DNA of 64,000 bases, taken from IMG/VR virus record IMGVR_UViG_3300035703_000045, positions 1 to 64,000 of that record; one strand, 5' to 3'. Below the pieces are notes generated by a model. That model was not told the DNA's origin, made no database searches, and saw nothing but the letters and a program-made list of their open reading frames with translations. Numbering within the stretch: position 1 is the stretch's first letter; every line of letters begins with the position of its first letter. Origin of the DNA: a virus. This document shows positions 12,463 through 56,784 of this stretch, piece after piece. The translations under genes were made by a program, and so were the position numbers.

Positions 12463-12897
12463 TCAGGATAAAGACATACCCATATACTTGATTTTATTAT
12501 CATTTATGTCTTTTTTATGCATAATGTAAGAAATACTGCCCTTATCTTCAACTTGGTTACGATACTGAAGTACTTCTCCGGGTTTAACGTCACGAGGTCT
12601 TACTGGAACTGTTTCCCACAAAGTGGGTCCACTTTTATCGGCAAGTTCCATAACTATGCGTGAGTCTCGTTCTGAGTCCGGGTCATGATCATCATCAGCC
12701 CAGATTTCAGGACGAAGCATACTTACAGGGATTCGGTAATGATGAATAACATCTCTACCTGACTCCATCATACGGTCAATTGCGGCTTGTTCAGTACCAG
12801 CAAAAACATGAGGATGACCATATCGTACATGGGGAGCATTGTTATCCATTGATGCGTGGTACACATCAATAAACTGTGGTCCGTCAGGTATTGGCAT
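12463..12897 (-). CDS. ART-like protein of the VED-GS subfamily, first gene of leftward operon
   Basis: 144 residues. It shows VYHASMD (H14), HVFAGTEQAAIDRM and VIHHYRIPVSMLRPEIWADD, then RNQVEDKGSISYIMHK. It is clearly paralogous to the 160-aa protein (shared blocks I-P-V-S-M-x-R-P-E and V-E-D-x-G-S-I-S). It is the first gene of the leftward operon next to the origin-like region and would enter the transcribed zone early. No Shine-Dalgarno is visible; a TATTAT box lies 6 nt before the ATG, so leaderless translation is possible. Confidence 0.55.
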   Translation of the reverse strand: MPIPDGPQFIDVYHASMDNNAPHVRYGHPHVFAGTEQAAIDRMMESGRDVIHHYRIPVSMLRPEIWADDDHDPDSERDSRIVMELADKSGPTLWETVPVRPRDVKPGEVLQYRNQVEDKGSISYIMHKKDINDNKIKYMGMSLS

Positions 12898-12909
12898 GGC
12901 TCAATAATA
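12898..12909 (-). promoter_or_regulatory. TATTAT-type leader directly before ATG (copy 2)
   Basis: Identical TATTATTGAGCC before the ATG of the 144-aa gene, with no Shine-Dalgarno. A 13-bp direct repeat (CAGAATAGGGCTA) follows further upstream, at about 12911 and 12954. Confidence 0.4.
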
Positions 12910-13021
12910 CCAGAATAGGGCTACATTTGACTTTTGGCAGGTTACCCCCATTGCAGAATAGGGCTATTGCGTAGTTTTGGTGTTATTGGGTGGTTGGCCC
13001 TGCACCATTCGCCGTGAAGCC

Positions 13022-13252
13022 TGTGGATTAACCATGGGGGGTGTGGATATCCCTGTGGATAATGCCGTTATCCACAGCCCTATCTGTGGATAAGTGGTGT
13101 AGTTATCCACATCCCTGTGGGCAATTCTGTGGATAAGTGGCTGTCAAGGGGCAATTGTGTGACATTTGTCATGTGGATAACCCCATTTCCTGTGGATAAC
13201 TATGTGGATAACCCCGAAACCCTGTGTATAACCCATTTCAGCCTGTGGATAA
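13022..13252. repeat. DnaA-box cluster (nine perfect boxes)
   Basis: Nine exact copies of TGTGGATAA/TTATCCACA lie at 13054, 13068(-), 13085, 13103(-), 13128, 13172, 13191, 13203 and 13244. Three one-mismatch relatives lie at 13022, 13042 and 13223. This is the consensus bacterial DnaA box. The density (nine in about 200 bp) equals or exceeds many chromosomal origins. It suggests recruitment or titration of host DnaA; an origin role is inference. Confidence 0.85.
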
Positions 13253-13685
13253 AGATACCCCAAGGGGTACCGTACGCTGGGGAAATGCAAAGTGGGCTTG
13301 TTCATTGACTTTCTGCACGATTTCAGTGCATTTGCCCTGCTCAGAGGCACATTTCGTTGTCCACAGCGATCTGTGGAAATCGCCGTAGAGCCGTTTGGAG
13401 GCTCTGGAGGGGGTGCAGTGCCCCGAAACGCTGGAGGCTGTCAGAGGGCGAAATAGGGGGCAATGAGAGGAAAGTGTCATAACGTGGCATCAGCCCTAGA
13501 AATGGGGCTATGGGTGAGACAAATGTCACAAGTGGGGGGTAGGTGCAGGTATTTGCACTATGCAATCAATCCCCCATCAACTATTTGTACTCTGCAATAG
13601 TTGCACCCTACAAGTATCCCCGTCGCATCCCCCCTATGACCCCCTCTGATATCCCATTCATATATATGTCCAATTTCCGATCCAG

Positions 13686-13717
13686 TTATCCACAGGGGGC
13701 GCAGAAAGTTATCCACA
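13686..13717 (-). repeat. Two further perfect DnaA boxes
   Basis: Exact TTATCCACA at 13686-13694 and 13709-13717, each followed by G. They lie about 430 bp from the main cluster, across a segment with tandem-like TGCAAT repeats that might be the unwinding element. Confidence 0.8.
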
Positions 13718-14054
13718 GACCCCGAATCGTCCCTACAGTGGCAGTGTGAGGTTCGCAGGGGTCACCATCGTCGGTGGCATCTCAGCATGCGTCCCTACCT
13801 CACGGTGATTCCCACCCTGCAAGGTCGCCACGCTCTCCGATGTCGCAAGTTTGACAGTGCGAGCACGACCGATGCCCCAGCGGTGCGCTGGCACGGATGG
13901 GAAGTCACCCCGTGATTACGAAATGCTCCGAACTGGGGGGATCAGAAGTTGGGCGGTCTAGCACCCGTCACCCCTGAATGCATAGCCAGTCCACCGGAGT
14001 ACGCATGCCAATTCCAACGGTCTCAGGTCTCAGGTCTCACAAGGCGCAAGGTCT

Positions 14055-14194
14055 CATCGTCCGTCCCCCATGTATGTGGGGGGCGATGGTCGCAGGGGTT
14101 CGCCCCGTAAAGCGACACCGTTGGGAGATGCCCCACTAGGGGGCGATTCATGAGGTGCGATCCCTCCTCCCAACACTGCTGACATCCCGTCAGC
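14055..14194 (+). ncRNA. Highly structured leader upstream of the early operon
   Basis: Four successive hairpins can be drawn. (a) About 14055-14087, CATCG..CCCCCA pairing with TGGGGGGCGATG. (b) 14089-14116, GTCGC AGGGG, loop TTCG, CCCC GTAAA GCGAC. (c) 14120-14174, GTTGGGAG with CTCCCAAC, enclosing GCCCC-ACTA-GGGGGC. (d) 14178-14194, GCTGAC ATCCC GTCAGC. The 17-bp palindrome (14196-14212) follows directly, 19 bp before the first ATG. It could be a regulatory 5' leader, a small RNA or an origin-associated structure. Its transcription is not demonstrated by the sequence. Confidence 0.5.
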
Positions 14195-14195
14195 C

Positions 14196-14212
14196 TGCGT
14201 TCCCGTAACGCA
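14196..14212. repeat. 17-bp early-operon palindrome, copy 1 (one mismatch)
   Basis: TGCGTTCCCGTAACGCA, differing from the consensus TGCGTTAC-S-GTAACGCA by one base. It ends 19 bp before the ATG of the HTH gene. Confidence 0.8.
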
Positions 14213-14231
14213 CCAACCCGAAAGGACAGCA

Positions 14232-14873
14232 ATGAACACCACCGACAACCGAGGGGTTCTCACCCCCATCCACACCGCCTGCGAGATCGCCGAGTCGGCT
14301 CTCGCTGATGCCAACGAGGTGCTCGCCTGCCTGCCAGTGATCATGGATGCCAGCGAGGGTGTCAGCAATCGTGACATCGCCTACTGGGGCGTGAGCGAGG
14401 GCATGGTTCGCCGGTACAAGGTGCTCGCCACCATCATCGCCTTGGGCGACGACGAGGGTGCCCAGTGCGATCTCTTCACGGCTCGCAAGGTCGTGAACGC
14501 CACGTTCAAGGTCAAGGGCATCACCACCGAGATGATGAACGAGGTCATCGCTGAGAGCGACACCGTGTCGCAGGCGGTCGCTGGTCTTCAGGCTCTCGCC
14601 TTGGCTCCGGTCATGACCGAGGTGGACGAGGACGAGACGGACGGCGACGGCGACGGCGACGAGGATCAGACCCCCGACCCCAAGGACGACCTCGCCAAGA
14701 AGGTCACCAACTGGCTCACGGCTGGTCAGGGTTCGCTTCGCAAGGTCGTGGAGGCGCAGGGCAACGGGTTCGTCCTGACCGATGAGCAGGTCGTCGCTCT
14801 CACCACCCTGACCGACCTCGTCGCTCAGATCAACGCCAACGCCAACGCTCAGAAGACGGTCGTCGCCGTCTGA
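14232..14873 (+). CDS. HTH protein, first gene of the early rightward operon
   Basis: 213 residues. The segment VSNRDIAYWGVSEGMVRRYKVLA (about 44-66) reads as a helix-turn-helix. A D/E/G-rich acidic linker follows (about 133-152), then a C-terminal helical domain. It has a good ribosome site (GAAAGGAC). It is GC-rich with strong C/G third-position preference, unlike the structural genes. It lies next to the DnaA-box region, so an autoregulator of the six palindromes or a replication or partition protein is plausible. It lacks ParB nuclease motifs. Confidence 0.6.
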   Translation: MNTTDNRGVLTPIHTACEIAESALADANEVLACLPVIMDASEGVSNRDIAYWGVSEGMVRRYKVLATIIALGDDEGAQCDLFTARKVVNATFKVKGITTEMMNEVIAESDTVSQAVAGLQALALAPVMTEVDEDETDGDGDGDEDQTPDPKDDLAKKVTNWLTAGQGSLRKVVEAQGNGFVLTDEQVVALTTLTDLVAQINANANAQKTVVAV

Positions 14874-14998
14874 TGACACCGCCAGTAGCAGTGGGGATGC
14901 CACGGGGCATCAGCAATCCCACGGGGGGTTCAACTCCCCCCACTGGCACTGCTGGACGAGTGCACGGGCAACTGTGCGCTCGTCTAGTATCAACACCG

Positions 14999-15015
14999 TG
15001 CGTTACCGTAACGCA
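14999..15015. repeat. 17-bp early-operon palindrome, copy 2
   Basis: TGCGTTACCGTAACGCA, ending 19 bp before the ATG of the DUF6011-like gene, the same distance as copy 1. A TAGTAT box at 14985-14990 lies just upstream, so the palindrome might sit at the transcript start. Confidence 0.9.
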
Positions 15016-15034
15016 CCCGAATGAAAGGACAGCC

Positions 15035-15874
15035 ATGAACCAGCCCAGCGAGAAGCAGATCGGATTCATCCGGTCTCTCGTCAACGAGCGTCGTCAGACG
15101 CTCACCGACCTCAAGCCCGAGTGGCTCACCACTCCGACCACGACCCGTGAGGCGAGCGACATCATCTCCCGACTGATGGATCTGCCCCGTGACCCGAAGG
15201 CTCCGACCGCCGAAGATGCCGACCTCGCCACCGACATGGCAATCCTCAAGAACGGACTGGGCGAATTGTCGGGGCGTGACTTCCACTTCGCCTCGTCGCT
15301 CGTCAAGCAGTACGAAGAGCGTGGCACCCTGTCCGACCGCCAACGGGCGTTCATCCCCAAGTTGTTCAAGGCGATGGACGGTGCTGACAAGCCCGTGCCC
15401 ATGGGCATCCACCGTGCCAGCGACGGCACCATCGTCCTCGTCTACCTGACCAAGAACGGTCGTCAGGCTGGCAAGGTGCTGGACGAGGGCACCTTCATCT
15501 ACGCCAGCGGTGTCATCGCCCGTTTCAACCTGTCCGACGAGACGGTGATCTCGCAGGCGCAGGCTCAGGAGTTCGGGCGCACCCACGGCTTCTGCGTGGC
15601 ATGTGCCAAGCCCCTCACCGACGACCGCTCGCTCGCATCGGGCTACGGCGCAGTGTGCGCTGGCAAGTACGGGTGGCACTACTGCACCCGTGAAGAGGCG
15701 GTGGCGATCTTGGGTCGCCCCGTCGCCTGCCAGCACCAGTGGGAGTTGGTCAAGACGGACACCAACTACTACAACCCCCAATTGGGGACGGGGTCGTGGA
15801 CGGAGCACTACGAGTGCGCCAACTGCGACGAGTGCAAGACGGTCAACATCGTCAACAACCGCTCGGGCGACTGA
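15035..15874 (+). CDS. DUF6011-like zinc-binding protein
   Basis: 279 residues starting at ATG 15035 after GAAAGGAC. The N-terminus (SEKQIGFIRSLVNERR) is a form seen in phage DNA-metabolism proteins. A central domain (about 80-180) precedes FCVACAKPLTDDRSLASGYG..C (about 187-213), the DUF6011-type Cys cluster, then CQHQWELV and CANCDECK. The cysteines suggest zinc binding and nucleic-acid contact. Expressed between the HTH and SNF2 genes. Function unknown. Confidence 0.55.
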   Translation: MNQPSEKQIGFIRSLVNERRQTLTDLKPEWLTTPTTTREASDIISRLMDLPRDPKAPTAEDADLATDMAILKNGLGELSGRDFHFASSLVKQYEERGTLSDRQRAFIPKLFKAMDGADKPVPMGIHRASDGTIVLVYLTKNGRQAGKVLDEGTFIYASGVIARFNLSDETVISQAQAQEFGRTHGFCVACAKPLTDDRSLASGYGAVCAGKYGWHYCTREEAVAILGRPVACQHQWELVKTDTNYYNPQLGTGSWTEHYECANCDECKTVNIVNNRSGD

Positions 15875-15935
15875 TCAGGGGGTGGTATCGGGCAATCTGA
15901 TATCCATCCCATATCCCATCCGACTGCTGGGGGGT

Positions 15936-15952
15936 TGCGTTACCGTAACGCA
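15936..15952. repeat. 17-bp early-operon palindrome, copy 3
   Basis: TGCGTTACCGTAACGCA flanked by GGGG and CCCC, lengthening the inverted repeat with one mismatch. It lies 61 bp after the previous stop and 50 bp before the SNF2 ATG. Confidence 0.9.
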
Positions 15953-16002
15953 CCCCCTAGCCTGACCCTTCCAACCAACCCAACCACCGAAAGGACACCA
16001 CC

Positions 16003-17568
16003 ATGTCGTTCATTGACGACTTCCTCAACGACCTCCAGCCCACCGCTGGACGACCCTCGCCCCAACCTGTGGGCGTGTCCAGCCTCACCGTCCCGACCCT
16101 GCACCTGCCCCTGATGGACTACCAGCAGGAGTCGGTGCAGTTCGCATTGACCCGTCGCAGTGCCTACCTCGCCCTTGACATGGGCTTGGGCAAGACGGCA
16201 GTCGCCATCGCCATCGCCACTGCTGTTGCCCAGCAGGAGCACCGTCAGGTGCTCATCGTGGTGCCCCCGTCGCTCCGTACCAACTGGGTGCGAGAGTTCG
16301 GGAAGTTCAGCCCCGACCTCAGCATCCACGTCTTTGACAAGTCGGCTCCCACGCCGACCATCAGGGTGCCTCGCATGGTCAACGGCTCCCCGTTGACGGT
16401 GGACGGCAAGAAGGTCATGGACGAGGTTCCCAACCCGAACCCTCCGACCCTCCCGACCAGCAACGTGCTCATCGTGGGCGACTCCACCGTGGAGGGCTGG
16501 GCGCACTGGTTGTCCACCTCTCCCCGTCCGGTCGGTGCGGTCATCGTTGATGAGGCGCATCGGATGAAGAATCCGAAGGCGTTGCGAACCAAGGCTCTCG
16601 CCCAACTCATCAAGTCCATGCCCAGCGACGGCGTGAGGATCATGATGTCGGGCACCCCTGCGCCCAACGGTCGTGCGTCGGAACTCGCCACCGCACTGGA
16701 ACTGGTGGACGGCTGGAGCACGGTCTCCAAGGGCACGTTCTGGCACTACTACTGCCCCCCTGCCAAGTTCGGTCGTGAGCATCTGCCCGAGCGTGTGCAG
16801 GAGTTGGGCGAGAAGTGCCGGAGCACGTTCATGCTCCGTCGCCTCCGTGGTGAGGTGCTGACCCTCCCGAACAAGGGACGCAGTGCCATCGCCGTGGAGG
16901 GCAAGGGCACCGCCGTGCGTAAGTACATCAGCGCAGAGGAAGACCTCATTGAATTCCTCAGCGGTGAGGGTCGCTCCACTGAGGGTGCCGGTCGTGCAGA
17001 AGCACTGGTGCGTCTCACCACTCTCCGTGCCCTCGCTGGTCAGGCGAAGGTGGACGGTGCGGTCACCCTCATCAAGGAGATGCTGGAGGACGACCCCTCG
17101 GGCATCCTCGTCATCGCAGAGCATCAGGCGGTCATGGACGCACTGGAGATGGCGTTCATCGGCAAGGCTGTCAGCATCCGTGGTGGCATGACCGACACGC
17201 AGAAGAGCGATGCCGTGGACATGTTCAACGGTGGTCACGCTCAGGTGCTCATCGGTCAGATCACCAGTGCAGGCGTGGGCTTCACCCTGCACGGTGGTGG
17301 TCGCAACCATCGGGTCGTCGTCGTGCAGTTGCCGTGGACTCCTGCTGAACTCCAGCAGGCAGAGGATCGCCTCCACCGCATCGGGCAGACGCACGATGTG
17401 GAGGTGACCATTGTGCTCACGCACATTGATGGCAAGTGGAGCATTGATGAGCGACTGTGGGGTCTCTTGGAGCAGAAGGCGTTCAGTGCCACCGCCATGA
17501 TCAACGGCGAGGGAGAGTTCCTCACGGACAGCGAAATCCGTGAGGGTCTGCTGGACACCTACCGCTGA
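16003..17568 (+). CDS. SNF2/DEAD-family helicase, early copy
   Basis: 521 residues. Q-like motif MDYQQESV (38-45), Walker A DMGLGKT (59-65), motif Ia VVPPSLRTNW, Walker B VDEAHRMKN, motif III MSGTPAPNGR, and a second RecA lobe with ITSAGVGFTLHGGG (motif V) and QAEDRLHRIGQ (motif VI). This is a complete SNF2-type ATPase core; it translocates on duplex DNA rather than unwinding it. A ribosome site (GAAAGGAC) precedes ATG 16003. A second, unrelated-looking SNF2 gene lies at 50-52 kb. Its early position suggests remodelling of host or phage DNA, transcription or defence complexes. Confidence 0.9.
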   Translation: MSFIDDFLNDLQPTAGRPSPQPVGVSSLTVPTLHLPLMDYQQESVQFALTRRSAYLALDMGLGKTAVAIAIATAVAQQEHRQVLIVVPPSLRTNWVREFGKFSPDLSIHVFDKSAPTPTIRVPRMVNGSPLTVDGKKVMDEVPNPNPPTLPTSNVLIVGDSTVEGWAHWLSTSPRPVGAVIVDEAHRMKNPKALRTKALAQLIKSMPSDGVRIMMSGTPAPNGRASELATALELVDGWSTVSKGTFWHYYCPPAKFGREHLPERVQELGEKCRSTFMLRRLRGEVLTLPNKGRSAIAVEGKGTAVRKYISAEEDLIEFLSGEGRSTEGAGRAEALVRLTTLRALAGQAKVDGAVTLIKEMLEDDPSGILVIAEHQAVMDALEMAFIGKAVSIRGGMTDTQKSDAVDMFNGGHAQVLIGQITSAGVGFTLHGGGRNHRVVVVQLPWTPAELQQAEDRLHRIGQTHDVEVTIVLTHIDGKWSIDERLWGLLEQKAFSATAMINGEGEFLTDSEIREGLLDTYR

Positions 17569-17590
17569 CCCCACCCCGACCACGGTGGGG

Positions 17591-17607
17591 TGCGTTACGG
17601 TAACGCA
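17591..17607. repeat. 17-bp early-operon palindrome, copy 4
   Basis: TGCGTTACGGTAACGCA inside a longer perfect inverted repeat: GGTGGGG pairs with CCCCACC, giving 15-bp arms around one base. It lies 22 bp after the SNF2 stop. Confidence 0.9.
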
Positions 17608-17631
17608 CCCCACCGATATCCATATCAAAGG

Positions 17632-17660
17632 TTGCAATATCAGATTGCGACCCCTAGAAT
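17632..17660 (+). promoter_or_regulatory. Sigma-70-type promoter before the CobS-like gene
   Basis: TTGCAA (17632-17637), 17-bp spacer, TAGAAT (17655-17660), about 48 bp before the ATG. The same -35/spacer form recurs at 21275 and, with CTGCAA, at 56295. Confidence 0.6.
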
Positions 17661-17707
17661 CCCAGTTACAAGTTCAGACCAACCCAACCACAAGAAAGGC
17701 AATCAAC

Positions 17708-18934
17708 ATGGCAACCATCCAAGAACTCGCTCTCGCCAAGCGACAGAACAAGCAGGCTCTCGCCACATCGGGAACGATGGAGGGCATGCGGTGCGACATC
17801 ATGTCGGACTCGCTCGTCCCCGACGGACAGCCCAACCAGCGCAAGGTCGCTGTCAAGTGGGAGGACGGCGAGGAGGGCTTCTACCTGCCCCGTCAGTTGG
17901 AGGTCGTGGAGCCGAAGACCCACGCCTTCATCCCGACCGCACAGCCCGTCCTCGTTGGACAGGCACAGCCCCAGCCCGTGGCGTTGTCCAGTGCCCCTGC
18001 CGTCGTGATGGGTGCGCTTCCCAGCCACCCCGACCACGACTTCTACGACGAGTTCCGTCCGTCGCCCGTCGTCAAGGAGATGCACATCGCCCGTCAGGCG
18101 ATGCTGGGGAGCGACCTCAACTCCACCGAGTACCTCATGGAGTGGTGGAACAAGCGTGACGAGTCGGGCTTCAGCAAGCCCCTCGCCCTCGTCGGTGACA
18201 CGCAGGCTGGCAAGACCATGGAGGTGGAGCGTCTCGCATTCGCCATCGCAGAGCGCATGGGTCTCAGCAAGCCCGTCCCCGTCTTCACGGTGATGGGTTC
18301 CAACGGCGTGACCGATCACGATCTGTTCGGCACCACTCGCACTGACCCCATGACGGGTCAGCCCGTGTTCATGCGTGGCACCGTGCAGATGGCTTGCGAG
18401 GCTCCCGTCGCCATCCTCTACTTGGATGAGGTCAACGCCATGGGTGGCAACGTCACCAGTGCCCTGCACCCCATCATTGACGGACGACACAAGTTCACCA
18501 ACTTGCGTCTCCCCGTCCGTACCGAGGCTGGCTACAGCCCCATGACCATCAACGTCTCCAAGGGTCTGTGGGTCATCGCCTCTTGGAACCCTGCCTACGC
18601 TGGCATGAACAAGACCAACGAGGCGTTCACCGCACGGTTCAAGGTGCTGGAGTGGAACTACGACTCCGCACTGGAAGACCACATCATCGGCTCGCCTGCG
18701 CTCCGCATGCTGGCTGACCAGTTGCGGAACCTGCGCTCCAAGCGCATCCTCAACACGCCGGTCGGTATCACCGACCTCAAGGACATCAAGTGGGAGGCGC
18801 ACAAGTTCGGTGCCAAGGTCGCACTGGATTCCTTCTTGGGCAAGTTCATCAGCGAGGCTGAGAAGATGGCGGTCTCGTCGGCAATGACCGACGGCTCCAT
18901 CTATCAAACCCTCCAGTTGGAGGTGAACTCCTGA
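17708..18934 (+). CDS. CobS-like MoxR-type AAA+ ATPase
   Basis: 408 residues. The N-terminal 110 residues are variable. ALVGDTQAGKT is the Walker A (163-170), ILYLDEVNAM the Walker B (about 236-245), and VIASWNPAYAGMNKTNEAFTARF holds sensor 1 and the Arg finger, as in CobS/MoxR-type ATPases. Partner: the metallopeptidase/vWA protein encoded next, a CobS-CobT-like pair. In cobalamin synthesis CobS-CobT drive CobN; no CobN-like gene is seen here, so chaperone-like remodelling of another target is likelier. It has its own promoter and palindrome upstream. Confidence 0.8.
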   Translation: MATIQELALAKRQNKQALATSGTMEGMRCDIMSDSLVPDGQPNQRKVAVKWEDGEEGFYLPRQLEVVEPKTHAFIPTAQPVLVGQAQPQPVALSSAPAVVMGALPSHPDHDFYDEFRPSPVVKEMHIARQAMLGSDLNSTEYLMEWWNKRDESGFSKPLALVGDTQAGKTMEVERLAFAIAERMGLSKPVPVFTVMGSNGVTDHDLFGTTRTDPMTGQPVFMRGTVQMACEAPVAILYLDEVNAMGGNVTSALHPIIDGRHKFTNLRLPVRTEAGYSPMTINVSKGLWVIASWNPAYAGMNKTNEAFTARFKVLEWNYDSALEDHIIGSPALRMLADQLRNLRSKRILNTPVGITDLKDIKWEAHKFGAKVALDSFLGKFISEAEKMAVSSAMTDGSIYQTLQLEVNS

Positions 18935-18948
18935 CAGCCTGAGGTGGG

Positions 18949-18965
18949 TGCGTTACGGTAACGCA
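18949..18965. repeat. 17-bp early-operon palindrome, copy 5
   Basis: TGCGTTACGGTAACGCA within perfect 16-bp arms around one base: GAGGTGG pairs with CCACCTC. It starts 14 bp after the CobS-like stop. The flanks differ from copy 4 yet still pair. Confidence 0.9.
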
Positions 18966-19074
18966 CCCACCTCATACCCCACCCATACCGATATCAACTG
19001 CAAGCAGAACCATCCACTTGCATTTGAACTTCATCACACCCACCCCGTACACTCATCAACAGAGAGGACACATC

Positions 19075-32633: not shown

Positions 32634-32860
32634 GATGACTTCTTCGTTCCGTACATGGCGACCGACTGAATTTGGTCAAGAAGCCATGCTGATGCCTCGT
32701 TAATACCATCCTGTGAAACAATGTCCCAACTCTGCCAAAGAGTGCAGTGCTTCTCCTTCAACCACTCCCTGATCAGATCTTGGGTGATGGATACATCTTG
32801 GGTTTCGTTAAGTACGTCGTCCATGGACGGGAACTTATCAATTATCTTGGCTGATGTCAA
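32630..32860 (-). CDS. Hypothetical protein
   Basis: 76 residues if started at TTG 32860; a shorter start (ATG 32824, giving MDDVLNETQ) is equally possible. Charged and helical. It overlaps the terminal part of the 478-aa gene by 23 bp. No motif recognised. Confidence 0.45.
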   Translation of the reverse strand: MTSAKIIDKFPSMDDVLNETQDVSITQDLIREWLKEKHCTLWQSWDIVSQDGINEASAWLLDQIQSVAMYGTKKSS

Positions 32861-34274
32861 TCACTGATTGAATAAAACGGTCAGTTTGATTTGCGTTCAT
32901 ACCGCCACCATCCAGTTGACGGGCGGTATCCCCTGCTCGTTGACCAAACAGCCTAGAAAGTACTCCTGAACTTCCACGGGCTTCAACTTCAATACGCATC
33001 ATATCCCGACTATCAGATATGTTCTTAAACCTATCAATGAGGGAGAACAGGCGATCCATCTCCGAGGATAGGGCTGGGTCAATACCCTGACCCTCCAGTT
33101 CTTCAGCAAACCGAGCGAACAAAACACGGCTTGCCTGCATCTCAATCATGGCTTGCAGTACTGCGGTCAACTGATCCTTTGTACGGATCTCAACAGGTAG
33201 ACGAAACCCACATTCTGAATTCTCTTGGAATGCAGGACAACGGCTGGCTAGATAGCAACTATTGCACTGTCGCAGAGGGTTGCTCTGATACCTAATAACA
33301 GGTGTCTCTTGAGGGTCAATTTCTATTAATTCTCCCTGCTCAGAGTGGGTTTGTGTACCCATTGAGAGCAGGTGTTCAATACCCATAACCGGTAGCAACA
33401 TACGGTCACTGTCGTGCCTCTTTTGTACTGGGGGTATATCAACATTTGTACCCTTCGGAACCATAGAAAGCCCACTTGGGGTTGAGGGGGATATATTAAC
33501 TATTTCCCCATCTTCAGAGTTTACAAACTCATTCTCATCATCCGCTGGGGATGGGTCATAGCCCCCAAATGTACGCTCCTCCCACTGCAACCACGAGCGG
33601 ATTGCAAGGGTTCCCACAGCGTCAACACTGTCCTCCATAACGGCTTCGTAGTCCACTCCGAGGCGCATGATGTCGGGGCGATGCTTCTTGCGTGATGACT
33701 CTTTCTGCTGGGCTGGGTACCGTCGTAGACCATGACCATCCCATACCTGAGTCTCGCCGTACCGGATAGCAGATGTCCATGATCCGACGACCACAACCTC
33801 CCATGGCAGGGCTTCAATGATGTCAGGTTTACTTGTTAAACCGAACAACTTGGTGTCCCAGCGGTTTGAAAGCGAACGAATGCGAGGAAGAGTTTTAGTA
33901 TCAATAGCCTTATCAGATATAGCAACACGCCCATATCGCTGGCATATCCAAGCGAGACGCTCTAAATCGTCACCGGCGTTCCAAACTGGGATGTACTTGT
34001 CTCCAAGCCAGTCGCCGTCCATGTCGGGGCGACCAATTACATAGGTCAAATAGTCGGCGTACTCACGCACAAAGTCTGTATACCCCGTCAGGTTCTCGTC
34101 ACCTTCGCTGGTGTAGACCAGCAGTTCCGCTCCAGCAAACACAACAGAAGGGTCAAACTCTTTCCGTTTGGGAACAGGGAGATGAGTGACATTGACACCC
34201 ATTCTTTGTACATTGTTAGCAATCAGGAGGTTTCTGTGGGTGCCTTTCTCGGCTCCACCTAGAAAGATTCTCAT
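32838..34274 (-). CDS. Large hypothetical protein with Cys cluster
   Basis: 478 residues from ATG 34274 (GGAG 6 nt upstream; overlapping ATGA). An N-terminal Rossmann-like part (MRIFLGGAEKGTHRNLLIANNV) resembles nucleotide- or TIM-type starts, and DTKLFGLTSKPDIIEALPWEVVVVGSW is an alpha/beta unit. A low-complexity acidic linker covers about 245-290. CNSCYLASRCPAFQENSEC (near 360) could bind zinc. The C-terminus is helical. I know similar long proteins from actinophages without assigned function. Confidence 0.5.
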   Translation of the reverse strand: MRIFLGGAEKGTHRNLLIANNVQRMGVNVTHLPVPKRKEFDPSVVFAGAELLVYTSEGDENLTGYTDFVREYADYLTYVIGRPDMDGDWLGDKYIPVWNAGDDLERLAWICQRYGRVAISDKAIDTKTLPRIRSLSNRWDTKLFGLTSKPDIIEALPWEVVVVGSWTSAIRYGETQVWDGHGLRRYPAQQKESSRKKHRPDIMRLGVDYEAVMEDSVDAVGTLAIRSWLQWEERTFGGYDPSPADDENEFVNSEDGEIVNISPSTPSGLSMVPKGTNVDIPPVQKRHDSDRMLLPVMGIEHLLSMGTQTHSEQGELIEIDPQETPVIRYQSNPLRQCNSCYLASRCPAFQENSECGFRLPVEIRTKDQLTAVLQAMIEMQASRVLFARFAEELEGQGIDPALSSEMDRLFSLIDRFKNISDSRDMMRIEVEARGSSGVLSRLFGQRAGDTARQLDGGGMNANQTDRFIQSVIDISQDN

Positions 34275-34744
34275 TCTTCTCTCCACGCTTTCTCAGCCAT
34301 CTTTACTGCCTGATTGTCCATTTCCTCAACCATGGTATCCCATTCTTTGATGACACGCCCACCGTCCCATTCCGGTCGGATGATGTACGGGCAGGCAACT
34401 AGGAGAGTAGGAATGCCCAGTCTCAAGGTTTCGGCGCAGGTACGGGGGTCATTGTCAATGTACCAATCAACCTTTCCAAAGACAGCAGAGATTCGGTGAA
34501 CCTTCTCAGCCCTCAAGTTGGGGCTTGGTTCATCAAGGATCTCATAGAAGGAAGGCTTGAACCCCTCCTTCTTTAGCCAGTGCTCAATGATCGGACGTTC
34601 GTAGTCTTCATTGATAATGACGCACATACGCCCTATGGAGTTATCAAATAGGGCATTCCATATCTTGCGTCCGTCAGGATCAGGCTGGCGTAGAGCGAGT
34701 GTCTCAGCAGGGCGAGCCAGTACGGAGAAGTTGAACAGAATCAC
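34271..34744 (-). CDS. HAD-like hydrolase-type protein
   Basis: 157 residues. VDWYIDNDPRTCAETLRLGIPTLLVACP reads as the third/fourth acidic motif of a HAD phosphatase, but the N-terminal DxDx nucleophile is missing, so activity is uncertain. GTG start. It overlaps the 478-aa gene by ATGA. A similar protein lies in the replication block at 54 kb. Confidence 0.5.
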   Translation of the reverse strand: MILFNFSVLARPAETLALRQPDPDGRKIWNALFDNSIGRMCVIINEDYERPIIEHWLKKEGFKPSFYEILDEPSPNLRAEKVHRISAVFGKVDWYIDNDPRTCAETLRLGIPTLLVACPYIIRPEWDGGRVIKEWDTMVEEMDNQAVKMAEKAWREE

Positions 34745-53975: not shown

Positions 53976-54418
53976 CAAATGCTCCACGGCTTGTCAGGGC
54001 TGACAACTTTACCACGCAATCCAAGAATTGAAGAGTAGTCCTCATGTGGTGTGTAGACAACCGCAATAGAACGGTCGTAGACCAAGTCACTTGCGAACTC
54101 AATAATTGATGGGTACCACAAAACTGGGGTGCTTACACCTTTACGGATTAGCCACTTCTCAATTGGATCAACCGCATCAGGGGAAAGGAAAGTGATGACA
54201 TGAGTAGCGATGCCCCGCCGGTTAACGCAATCAGAGAGCGACCGCATCGGCATATCATGAACAGTCCATAGGGGTATCACAGATGACCAGTCAGATGTTC
54301 GCTTATGGTAAGCACCCTTAACCTTGCCAACGATGGTTGATGGTGGGGATGCAAGAACTCCTTCAAACATGGTGACCTGTTTGATACGGGACACGGGATG
54401 AATGTCGTTCTTTTCCAT
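53975..54418 (-). CDS. HAD-like hypothetical protein
   Basis: 147 residues. ATHVITFLSPDAVDPIEKWLIRKG and IAVVYTPHEDYSSILGLRG resemble a degenerate HAD or nucleotide-sugar-like fold seen in the 157-aa protein at 34 kb. No catalytic pair is clear. It lies between helicase and loader, overlapping both. Confidence 0.5.
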   Translation of the reverse strand: MEKNDIHPVSRIKQVTMFEGVLASPPSTIVGKVKGAYHKRTSDWSSVIPLWTVHDMPMRSLSDCVNRRGIATHVITFLSPDAVDPIEKWLIRKGVSTPVLWYPSIIEFASDLVYDRSIAVVYTPHEDYSSILGLRGKVVSPDKPWSI

Positions 54419-55026
54419 CAGGCGATCCGAATACCCGTCATGTCAGAGACTGCTACGGCAATGCGGTCACCATACCGACGAGTGAAGTCAATCTGTGACA
54501 GCGTCGTGGTGATGATCGTCGTACGAGAGTCCTCATAACGACGACGAATCAAAGAACCCACCTCATGGACTGAGTAATCGGTTTGACGTTCCTGCCCGAC
54601 ACCATCTAGCACCACGACATCAAAGACACCTTGGATGTACTTCAAGAGGTAAGGCATTGAGTACATCTCTGGGAGAAGACCATTGTCTCCTTCAAAGGAA
54701 TCCTTCAGCATGTCAATGTAGCGGTCTGCGCTAATGAACCGACCTGACACGCCTTTTTCACGAATCAGGTACTGAAGGATCGCCTGTGAGGTAACACTCT
54801 TTCCACTGCCGTTGACACCGGTCAGGATCAGTGAGTTACCAAACTCGTAGTTGTGAACCCAGTGGTTGATTGACTTCATCGCCTTGTCGGAAATGGTCAG
54901 GTCATCTAGCCCGATAGAACGCCAACGATTGGGTACCCGAGAATGGAACATGCGTTCGTCTACGGGGCGATTACGCCACCACTTCTCCGACTTCCAGTCG
55001 GTCGGAACAACATATGTCTGTGACAT
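54418..55026 (-). CDS. DnaC/IstB-like helicase loader
   Basis: 202 residues. Walker A ILTGVNGSGKS (70-77 region) and Walker B FDVVVLDGVGQER; sensor-like TTIITTTLSQIDFTRRYG and a terminal R. Size and motifs match DnaC/DnaI-type AAA+ loaders. By analogy with lambda P, it would take DnaB to an origin bound by the neighbouring initiator. Starts 8 bp after the initiator gene. Confidence 0.85.
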   Translation of the reverse strand: MSQTYVVPTDWKSEKWWRNRPVDERMFHSRVPNRWRSIGLDDLTISDKAMKSINHWVHNYEFGNSLILTGVNGSGKSVTSQAILQYLIREKGVSGRFISADRYIDMLKDSFEGDNGLLPEMYSMPYLLKYIQGVFDVVVLDGVGQERQTDYSVHEVGSLIRRRYEDSRTTIITTTLSQIDFTRRYGDRIAVAVSDMTGIRIA

Positions 55027-55034
55027 GGAACTCC

Positions 55035-56303
55035 TTAGTTACGATTGATGCGTCGGTAGTTGTACACAGCAGAAACTATGCTATCTGCCGCTGGTCTAAT
55101 GCTCTGTTTTGTTGTTGACAGCAATTCTTTTGGCAATGGAATATCAGATAATGTTGAATGTATATCTGATACATCAACATCTTCCTCATCCAAATGCCAG
55201 CGAACCAGTGAGTTTAAAGCACTCAACATGGGCTGGAAGTTCGGGGTATCAAACGATGTGTCAATGATACTAGCCACCAACTCAGGGTAGCGGTAGGAGG
55301 CATCTAATCCACGGAGGATGACAGCCTGCTGGATCACACTGTCAAAGGCATCATTCCACGGAAGGTTGATACCTGACCGGTCAAAGTCTGACATCAGGAA
55401 CCGCAGGGTCACTCCCATGTCGTCATCCAACGTGACTGGCATGTTCTCCATGAGACTGGTCTGTACTGACTTGGTGCAAAACATGAGCACGGGGGAGTCG
55501 GCTTTGATGAACCGTTCGTTGGTGAAAAACCGGTCAATCATTCCCTTGATGGTGGGTCGGGTAAGACCACCGTCAAGTAGTAACCGGATGTTGCGCCGAA
55601 GGATGTTCATGTCCTGAAAGGTGTACGAGCAGTTCATGACAGACCGTGGATGGTAGACGAAGTAGTTCGTCAGGTCGTTGACCTCTGGGCGTGGCTTCCG
55701 TTTGGTTTCTGACTGCTTGGTCTGTTCAGGTTTGTCTGGGTCTGCCCCAATGATCATGTCGCCCTCGGCCCTCTTTAATAATTCTCTATGTATCTCTTTA
55801 TCTATTATTACTCTATGGTTTTCGTTTTGCTGGTCACACGCTGGAGTTTCTTTGATTTCAATAGGGTCATGGGTGACCCTATCAACCTCATTGGATAGGG
55901 TCATGGGTGACCCTATAATAGGGTCATGGGTGACCCCATATGGGGTCATGGGTGACCCTATTACCTTCTGTGTATAATGCACTTTATATACCGAAGATGC
56001 GGGGCGTGGTCGTCGTACAATATTAATGATGTGGTGTTGTTCCAACCACTTCAATGACCGCTTAACAGTCTCTTTGGAAGTGCGTGATTTGATGGCGATG
56101 TCGGAAATGGAAGCGTCAATCTCTTTGGTGTTGAGGCTCATCATGGACACCAACGTGACCAGAATCTGCAAGTCTCGGGGTTGCCCGTGCTCGTTGATGT
56201 AGTCCACGGACCACTCAGGAACAGCAATAAATCTACCCCCGAAGACATTACTGGTTCCCATGAGGTGGAGGACGTTATCACCTTTTTTGTCCCTCTGCAA
56301 CAC
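55035..56303 (-). CDS. Lambda O-like replication initiator with winged helix
   Basis: 422 residues from GTG 56303; ATG 56261 (MGTSNVFGGRF) is an alternative without a clear ribosome site. DISISDIAIKSRTSKETVKRSLKWLEQHHIINIVRR-type segments at about 65-100 form a winged-helix DNA-binding domain. A repeat region follows, encoded by four iterons (peptides alternating IGSPMTP/GVTHDPI). The C-terminal part (about 200-422) is helical and may bind the loader. Gene order initiator-loader-helicase resembles lambda O-P. Confidence 0.75.
   Translation of the reverse strand: MLQRDKKGDNVLHLMGTSNVFGGRFIAVPEWSVDYINEHGQPRDLQILVTLVSMMSLNTKEIDASISDIAIKSRTSKETVKRSLKWLEQHHIINIVRRPRPASSVYKVHYTQKVIGSPMTPYGVTHDPIIGSPMTLSNEVDRVTHDPIEIKETPACDQQNENHRVIIDKEIHRELLKRAEGDMIIGADPDKPEQTKQSETKRKPRPEVNDLTNYFVYHPRSVMNCSYTFQDMNILRRNIRLLLDGGLTRPTIKGMIDRFFTNERFIKADSPVLMFCTKSVQTSLMENMPVTLDDDMGVTLRFLMSDFDRSGINLPWNDAFDSVIQQAVILRGLDASYRYPELVASIIDTSFDTPNFQPMLSALNSLVRWHLDEEDVDVSDIHSTLSDIPLPKELLSTTKQSIRPAADSIVSAVYNYRRINRN
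55771..55820. other. AT-rich segment next to iterons, candidate unwinding element
   Basis: About 76% A+T over 50 bp inside the initiator gene, on the side downstream of the iterons in the gene's direction, as in lambda ori. The surrounding block is nearer 50%. Confidence 0.6.
55861..55961. repeat. Four 22-bp iterons inside the initiator gene
   Basis: Copies at 55861-55882, 55895-55916, 55918-55939 and 55940-55961. Each has arms ATAGGGTCA and TGACCCTAT around TGGG; copies 3 and 4 have one or two changes in the outer arm. Each is a 9-bp inverted repeat, so a dimer could bind each. Because 22 is not a multiple of 3 the encoded peptide alternates between reading registers. Confidence 0.9.
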
Positions 56304-56323
56304 ACGTCACAGAGTGATATTCT
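56295..56323 (+). promoter_or_regulatory. Promoter for Dps operon
   Basis: CTGCAA (56295-56300), 17-bp spacer, TATTCT (56318-56323), 26 bp before the GTG start. Same TGCAA/N17 form as the early promoters. Confidence 0.55.
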
Positions 56324-56349
56324 GTAATTTGCCGAGCACTGGAGACAAA

Positions 56350-56784
56350 GTGAAAGATTTAATTAAATCGCTGAAAGTGGTCATGTCCGATGTAGTTACT
56401 TTCTACTTCATGGCTCATGGGTACCATTGGAACGTGGAAGGTCAAGACTTCAGCCAGTACCACTCTTTGTTCTCCGACATCTATGAGGATGTGTACGGTT
56501 CCATTGATCCACTTGCAGAAAACATCCGCAAACTTGACGACTACGCACCTTTCAACCTTCAGAAGTTTATTGATCTACGAACCATTGAATTCAAGGATGT
56601 ACAGCCAAGTCCAAAGGCAATGGCTGGTTCTCTGATGAAGGCTAACGACATCTTGCTTGAGCGTCTTAACGAAGCGTTTGATCAGGCAACTAAAGATAAA
56701 CAGCAGGGCATCGCCAACTTCCTTGCTGACCGCATTGATATGCATATGAAATGGCGTTGGCAACTTAAAGCATCAACGAAATAG
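56350..56784 (+). CDS. Dps-like ferritin
   Basis: 144 residues, GTG start with GGAGA upstream. FYFMAHGYHWNVEGQDFSQYHSLFSDIYEDVYGSIDPLAENIRKL fits the Dps/ferritin-like ferroxidase helices (H, D, E and W conserved). Dps proteins store iron and bind DNA. A phage copy could protect DNA or act within the virion. First gene of a short rightward operon. Confidence 0.75.
   Translation: MKDLIKSLKVVMSDVVTFYFMAHGYHWNVEGQDFSQYHSLFSDIYEDVYGSIDPLAENIRKLDDYAPFNLQKFIDLRTIEFKDVQPSPKAMAGSLMKANDILLERLNEAFDQATKDKQQGIANFLADRIDMHMKWRWQLKASTK

Follow-up and report, generated by a model that had tools for sequence, protein, structure and literature searches.

Exact DnaA boxes clustered at a divergent operon junction in an uncultivated myovirus: a possible sink for host DnaA

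Here, I show that an uncultivated myovirus carries a dense array of exact DnaA boxes (TTATCCACA) between two diverging operons. The window, i.e. the whole stretch of 64,000 nucleotides analysed, belongs to a record of 93,044 bp, and its eleven exact boxes all lie within positions 13054-13717; the whole record has one more, at 85274. The region that holds them is tentatively read as a control region acting mainly as a sink for host DnaA, in the manner of an oriC- or datA-like decoy (rough probability 0.4). Titration of host DnaA is thus favoured over DnaA-controlled early promoters and over an auxiliary origin; between titration and DnaA-controlled promoters the sequence cannot decide. Of the interpretations put forward in an earlier note on this DNA, a decoy and an early control region remain, the decoy first, while a second origin is weakened.

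The earlier counts are accurate. Exactly eleven copies of TTATCCACA occur in the window, where 0.72 would be expected by chance (maximum of 3 in 100 shuffles); nine of them, announced as lying in about 200 bp, fall within 199 bp (13054-13252), and the other two, announced as some 430 bp away, follow after a gap of 433 bp as a plus-strand pair (13686-13694 and 13709-13717). Under a first-order Markov model of its own sequence, the 1334-bp intergenic gap is expected to contain 0.015 boxes (maximum of 1 in 2000), and no 9-mer is repeated more often within it than TTATCCACA. The exact boxes divide into seven minus-strand and four plus-strand copies, those of the main cluster being placed at 13054, 13085, 13128, 13172, 13191, 13203 and 13244 (minus) and at 13068 and 13103 (plus). 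There are also four one-mismatch boxes in the cluster region. Two on the minus strand, TAATCCACA (13022-13030) and ATATCCACA (13042-13050), precede the main cluster, and the start once claimed for the array, 13022, corresponds to the former, exact boxes beginning at 13054. The one-mismatch scan also places a minus-strand TTATACACA box inside the main cluster, at 13223.

Other small elements are interspersed with the boxes (related records are referred to here by number, the window being G000). A TGACATTTGTCA palindrome (13160-13171) is of the type TGTGACA-NN-TGTCACA, seen at other junctions; such palindromes, including the shorter form TGACA-NN-TGTCA, resemble sites of the CRP/GlxR type. The TGACA-NN-TGTCA palindromes belong to the junction itself in G000, G001 and G026; in phages lacking the cluster they occur about 1 kb inside the right operon. 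Further on are two small dyads, GCCCTGCTCAGAGGC (13334-13348), which in a three-phage alignment has a counterpart in G001 and a partial one in G026, and TCCACAGCGATCTGTGGA (13360-13377), found by folding, with a TTGTCCACA box beside them at 13357 (within 13334-13377). BLAST of the box region against cultured phages returned chance matches only, and a search of Rfam gave no match. Contamination with host chromosomal DNA was considered and rejected, because the cluster recurs amid the same phage surroundings in six relatives and a search of this phage revealed no dnaA gene.

The phage encodes a tail sheath, baseplate, portal, major head protein and terminase, the last being 46% identical to that of Streptomyces phage BRock, and its polymerase is approximately 34-36% identical to those of the BRock group. 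Its replication genes comprise a family-A polymerase, a DnaB-like helicase, a primase, a UvsX-like recombinase and SNF2-type helicases. No homologue of DnaA was found in the phage; genes neighbouring the helicase loader gene in relatives give weak scores with the DnaA AAA+ family. Judging from its relatives and from the fact that no integrase is seen, the phage appears to be lytic. Two WhiB proteins are encoded, a family that matched only Corynebacterium among 14 control genomes and that serves as an indicator of actinophages (PMC10202952); their presence points to a host that is probably an actinobacterium. A Chloroflexi host, suggested by one terminase match in a Chloroflexi genome bin, was set aside in favour of the WhiB evidence, that match being judged likely misbinned. 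The DnaA box of Mycobacterium tuberculosis and Streptomyces coelicolor is TTGTCCACA (PMC4285127), and TTATCCACA may not be the consensus of the host. Another gene shared with BRock, where it is likewise annotated, codes for a queuine tRNA-ribosyltransferase-like protein (32838-34286), possibly serving 7-deazaguanine DNA modification.

The density of boxes had been called unusual for a phage with an initiator of its own, and a gene for an initiator-like protein is indeed found, with iterons, at about 55.8 kb. The initiator-like gene (55035-56303, minus strand, 422 aa) has weak PHROG matches to replication initiation and DnaD-like families (E 5e-5 to 6e-4) and no Pfam match, and homologues of it occur in 14 of 17 records. 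Inside it lie four 22-bp palindromic iterons, ATAGGGTCATGGGTGACCCTAT (55861-55976), abutted by a TTATACACA box (55969-55977) and flanked by an easily melted segment (55772-55822) that ranks at the 0.01 percentile of the window; a gene for a DnaC/IstB-like AAA+ helicase loader (54418-55026, minus strand) adjoins. The arrangement is widespread: three to four palindromic repeats of about 22 bp are found inside the initiator-like gene in 13 of 13 relatives tested, with or without boxes (in G004 by tandem-repeat search only, while for G017 and G019 the gene concerned is shorter and weakly related), and the melting segment beside them stands at the 0.00-0.36 percentile in all six relatives tested, or seven of seven counting G000. 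A single DnaA box is present at or near the iterons in G000 (TTATACACA) and in G005 and G027 (TTATCCACA). The origin in the lambda O gene follows the same plan: the palindromic iterons are contained in an initiator-like gene, a stretch that melts easily comes next, and a loader gene is adjacent. The 55.8-kb locus is therefore like the lambda origin in these respects, the 13-kb cluster having none of them, and it is predicted to be the phage's own origin, of the lambda-O type. The start of the initiator-like gene is overlapped by a plus-strand ferritin-like gene (56260-56784) in an otherwise leftward replication block.

The homologous junction can be recognised in relatives by a 10-bp element, TAGCCCTATT, which occurs at the same junction in all 13 records analysed (the window included, and some of them fragments) and is rare elsewhere. 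Exact boxes at this junction number 11 in G000, 6 in G001, 4 in G005, 9 in G015 (8 of them within 650 bp), 9 in G026, 5 in G027, and 5 in G028 with one further away; G043 has 2 and G034 has 1, and none is found in G025 or in the mutually near-identical G007, G012 and G013. The check for conservation in related phages thus had a mixed outcome: a cluster is present in most, with at least four exact boxes in 7 of 13 junctions including that of this phage, and is absent from some, with 0-1 box in 5 of 13. In the six other carriers, the 4-9 exact boxes compare with about 0.01-0.02 expected. Leftward genes adjoining the junction are homologous among several carriers and the window. As for descent, the polymerase tree splits carriers cleanly from the one tested clade of non-carriers, and the terminase tree requires two changes to account for the distribution of the cluster; seven carriers are, however, a small sample.

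When G000, G001 and G026 are aligned, identity is 0.66-0.69 in box columns versus 0.48-0.53 elsewhere, although the aligner may favour boxes, and the box islands are supportive of conservation rather than proof of it. Across the sequences compared, the box itself is kept while the intervening DNA and the number, direction and position of boxes change. Within any one cluster the boxes are mostly in one direction; relative to the operons, the dominant direction is minus in G000, G001 and G026, and plus in G005, G015, G027 and G028. In box-less G025, TTACCCACG is found at the same place near TAGCCCTATT, apparently as decayed boxes. The actinobacterial form TTGTCCACA forms no clusters in the relatives that are without TTATCCACA clusters. 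A different kind of site accompanies the boxes of G026, in which three copies of GTTCCACGTGGAAC, a parS-like site, lie in the same gap as its nine boxes (L271, 11570-11929) and nowhere else in that record; they are absent from all other records tested.

Since the cluster is far from the predicted own origin, it more likely captures or senses host DnaA than copies the virus. Over time, the control region would have gained high-affinity sites for the host initiator; host DnaA would bind these boxes, which would exceed the free DnaA as phage genomes multiply, and fewer initiations at the host oriC would then free replication capacity for the phage. The number and purity of the boxes, the junction clusters in six relatives, the identity of box columns and an own origin elsewhere have been counted in favour of titration, as have the missing melting element in 5 of 7 carriers and the parS-like GTTCCACGTGGAAC sites of G026. 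The arithmetic is permissive: 20 phage copies would bring 220 exact boxes, to be set against approximately 200 DnaA monomers per origin in E. coli (PMC5835720), so that titration is possible if the host resembles that species. Furthermore, where the boxes lie and which way they point with respect to TAGCCCTATT varies by lineage, as expected if it is mainly the number of sites that matters.

The closest bacterial parallel to a DnaA sink is datA of E. coli, a compact cluster of high-affinity DnaA boxes outside the origin, and the phage region likewise combines 11 exact consensus boxes with a predicted origin that lies elsewhere, at 55.8 kb. E. coli datA is also distinguished by DnaA-ATP hydrolysis dependent on an IHF site. 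It differs from the phage region in its content, with two consensus boxes and four of one misfit versus 11 exact and four one-mismatch boxes, and a cluster on a phage would act in many copies. The comparison is apt in that plasmids carrying DnaA boxes raise the initiation mass of E. coli and, in multicopy, lower the available DnaA and delay initiation (PMC5835720). An extended form of the decoy reading, rather doubtful on present evidence, sees in these phages a lytic lineage whose DNA would imitate the host origin and, relying on its many copies rather than on an inhibitor protein, sequester host proteins of both replication and segregation; it draws on the perfect-box arrays, joined in one relative (G026) by the parS-like sites.

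Several points count against titration. For a pure decoy any location would serve, yet it is the strand switch that the boxes occupy. The function is evidently dispensable, given the five junctions with 0-1 box and the lack of a cluster in the BRock-group phages tested; the box of M. tuberculosis and S. coelicolor is TTGTCCACA, and the host is inferred from WhiB only. In addition, a box 16-18 nt from TAGCCCTATT in G005, G015, G027 and G043 hints at regulation.

The latter points lead to the strongest rival, a possible reading though a less probable one, in which DnaA bound at the strand switch would activate or repress both operons, allowing the phage to read the growth or cell-cycle state of its host. 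The cluster was said to lie exactly between diverging operons, and so it does: the intergenic control region (12898-14231; 1334 bp, GC 0.54), which holds all the boxes, is bounded on one side by the leftward operon, whose first gene is 12463-12897 (minus strand, 144 aa, with a distant homologue on the same junction side in L274), and on the other by the rightward operon, whose first gene is 14232-14873 (plus strand, 213 aa), nearly all genes of the record being leftward outside approximately 14-29 kb. Every cluster in the relatives is also located at a divergent junction. Two copies of TAGCCCTATT (12914-12923 and 12957-12966, both on the minus strand), detected by pattern scan, read toward the leftward operon, and the element is probably a phage promoter element. 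Close behind the element, G001 and G026 both have a TANNNT hexamer as well as a start codon, which suggests a phage promoter with a short leader or none.

For promoter control speak the strand-switch position and the box at 16-18 nt from TAGCCCTATT in four relatives, which keep it a strong rival, together with the decayed-looking TTACCCACG at that place in G025. There is also a precedent in the host regulator CtrA, which controls genes of Alphaproteobacteria phages (PMC9437464). However, the place of the boxes relative to TAGCCCTATT, fixed in those four relatives, is variable in the others: they start on the other side of it, 56-97 nt away, in G000, G001 and G026, and about 300 nt away in G028, so there is no shared promoter geometry. 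Moreover, up to 11 exact boxes exceed the need of a promoter, and TAGCCCTATT is retained in box-less relatives. Next to the region, the rightward operon opens with a jump in GC content, 0.45 giving way to 0.63 (14001-19000), and the value is back down by 24 kb; the early genes of this GC-rich operon may have a separate history.

An auxiliary DnaA-dependent origin, used early before the phage initiator is made, is a less likely explanation of the cluster than either titration or promoter control, and must be regarded as improbable. It would suit the strand-switch site, as nearly all genes are co-directional with forks leaving there, as well as the shared direction of most boxes within a cluster and the small, partly conserved dyads between them. 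The size would also be appropriate to an actinobacterial oriC, that of Streptomyces being about 950 bp (PMC4285127). The likeness to bacterial oriC, especially the long actinobacterial ones, extends to many boxes over several hundred bp, mostly of one direction and in two groups, but the cluster has no dnaA or dnaN neighbours in sight, lacks a melting element in most carriers, and consists of TTATCCACA where Streptomyces and Mycobacterium have TTGTCCACA. In G000, the lowest stability over 51 bp in the gap is equalled or beaten by 74% of segments of the same length, and unusually weak DNA was not found at the junction of 5 of 7 carriers (G000, G001, G015, G026 and G028); in the other two, G005 and G027, the gap does include a weak segment, near a gene edge.

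GC skew, proposed earlier as a check, does change sign at 13 kb (+0.012 to the left of the gap, -0.009 to the right), yet the change is accounted for by gene direction. The coding-strand GC3 skew is alike in all three sectors (-0.11, -0.09 and -0.10), leaving no switch beyond the gene-direction effect, and nearly all genes are co-directional with a fork leaving 13 kb, so the test is not decisive and was discarded as uninformative about a second origin. The second DnaA-dependent origin of the earlier note is weakened by the lack of a melting element at 13 kb and by the iteron origin at about 55.8 kb, which is conserved in carriers and non-carriers of boxes (with its melting element in all seven tested for one) and makes a DnaA-dependent origin unnecessary. 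Box-less relatives, furthermore, share the same polymerase and initiator-like gene.

It is very unlikely that the 9-mers are bound by a phage protein sharing the DnaA consensus, such as the adjacent 14232-14873 product, a small, fast-evolving protein whose place is kept, for it diverges strongly between phages (37% identical in G026, with no detectable similarity between most phage pairs) while the 9-mer stays exactly TTATCCACA, and the same 9-mer forms clusters in unrelated viral contigs. A pattern scan yielded no relatives of this protein, and its single-sequence AlphaFold model gave no usable fold (pLDDT 38).

DnaA-box clusters are already known, and so is the use of host regulators by phages; their combination in a phage that also has a predicted iteron origin of its own is, as far as the literature was searched, undocumented. 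No equivalent DnaA-box cluster in a lytic phage was found in the openly searchable literature, which leaves most subscription journals outside. Phages are known to halt the replication of their hosts by means of proteins. A sponge made of nucleic acid, if real, would be a different way of doing so that needs no gene. The host could hardly evade such a DnaA sponge, since neither DnaA nor its box can be dispensed with, and a single DNA fragment would suffice for an easy test; the box clusters of several unrelated viral groups might also be accounted for in this way. Should the region instead be a DnaA-responsive promoter region, it would mean that the phage senses the replication cycle of its host. 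In this respect it resembles the CtrA sites of Alphaproteobacteria phages, where a cell-cycle regulator of the host likewise has its binding sites gathered between phage genes, except that the regulator would be DnaA; the survey of those phages found CtrA sites and no asymmetry of DnaA sites (PMC9437464).

The closest cultured relatives by terminase and polymerase are Streptomyces phage BRock (Borockvirus) and its group, which have a similar plan of gene directions and WhiB, and no DnaA-box cluster of either box form is present in BRock, Alone3 or pSt2308. BRock (NC_048650.1) has a 221-bp terminal repeat (PMC7453282), which sits where the corresponding divergent junction seems to be; by analogy, phages of the present family could have their DnaA cluster close to a physical end of the genome.

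Beyond this family, a search for closely spaced triplets of boxes retrieved at least 119 stretches of viral contigs. The 80 listed (L148-L227) include several unrelated groups, and some may be host DNA. In the two largest groups among the matches listed, the cluster is near terminase genes in the representatives, and several contigs end near it. No box clusters were seen in a few cultured or complete relatives of other box-bearing groups (L297-L301). In one contig (L196) the cluster reaches 16 exact boxes within 300 bp and adjoins a sigma-factor-like gene.
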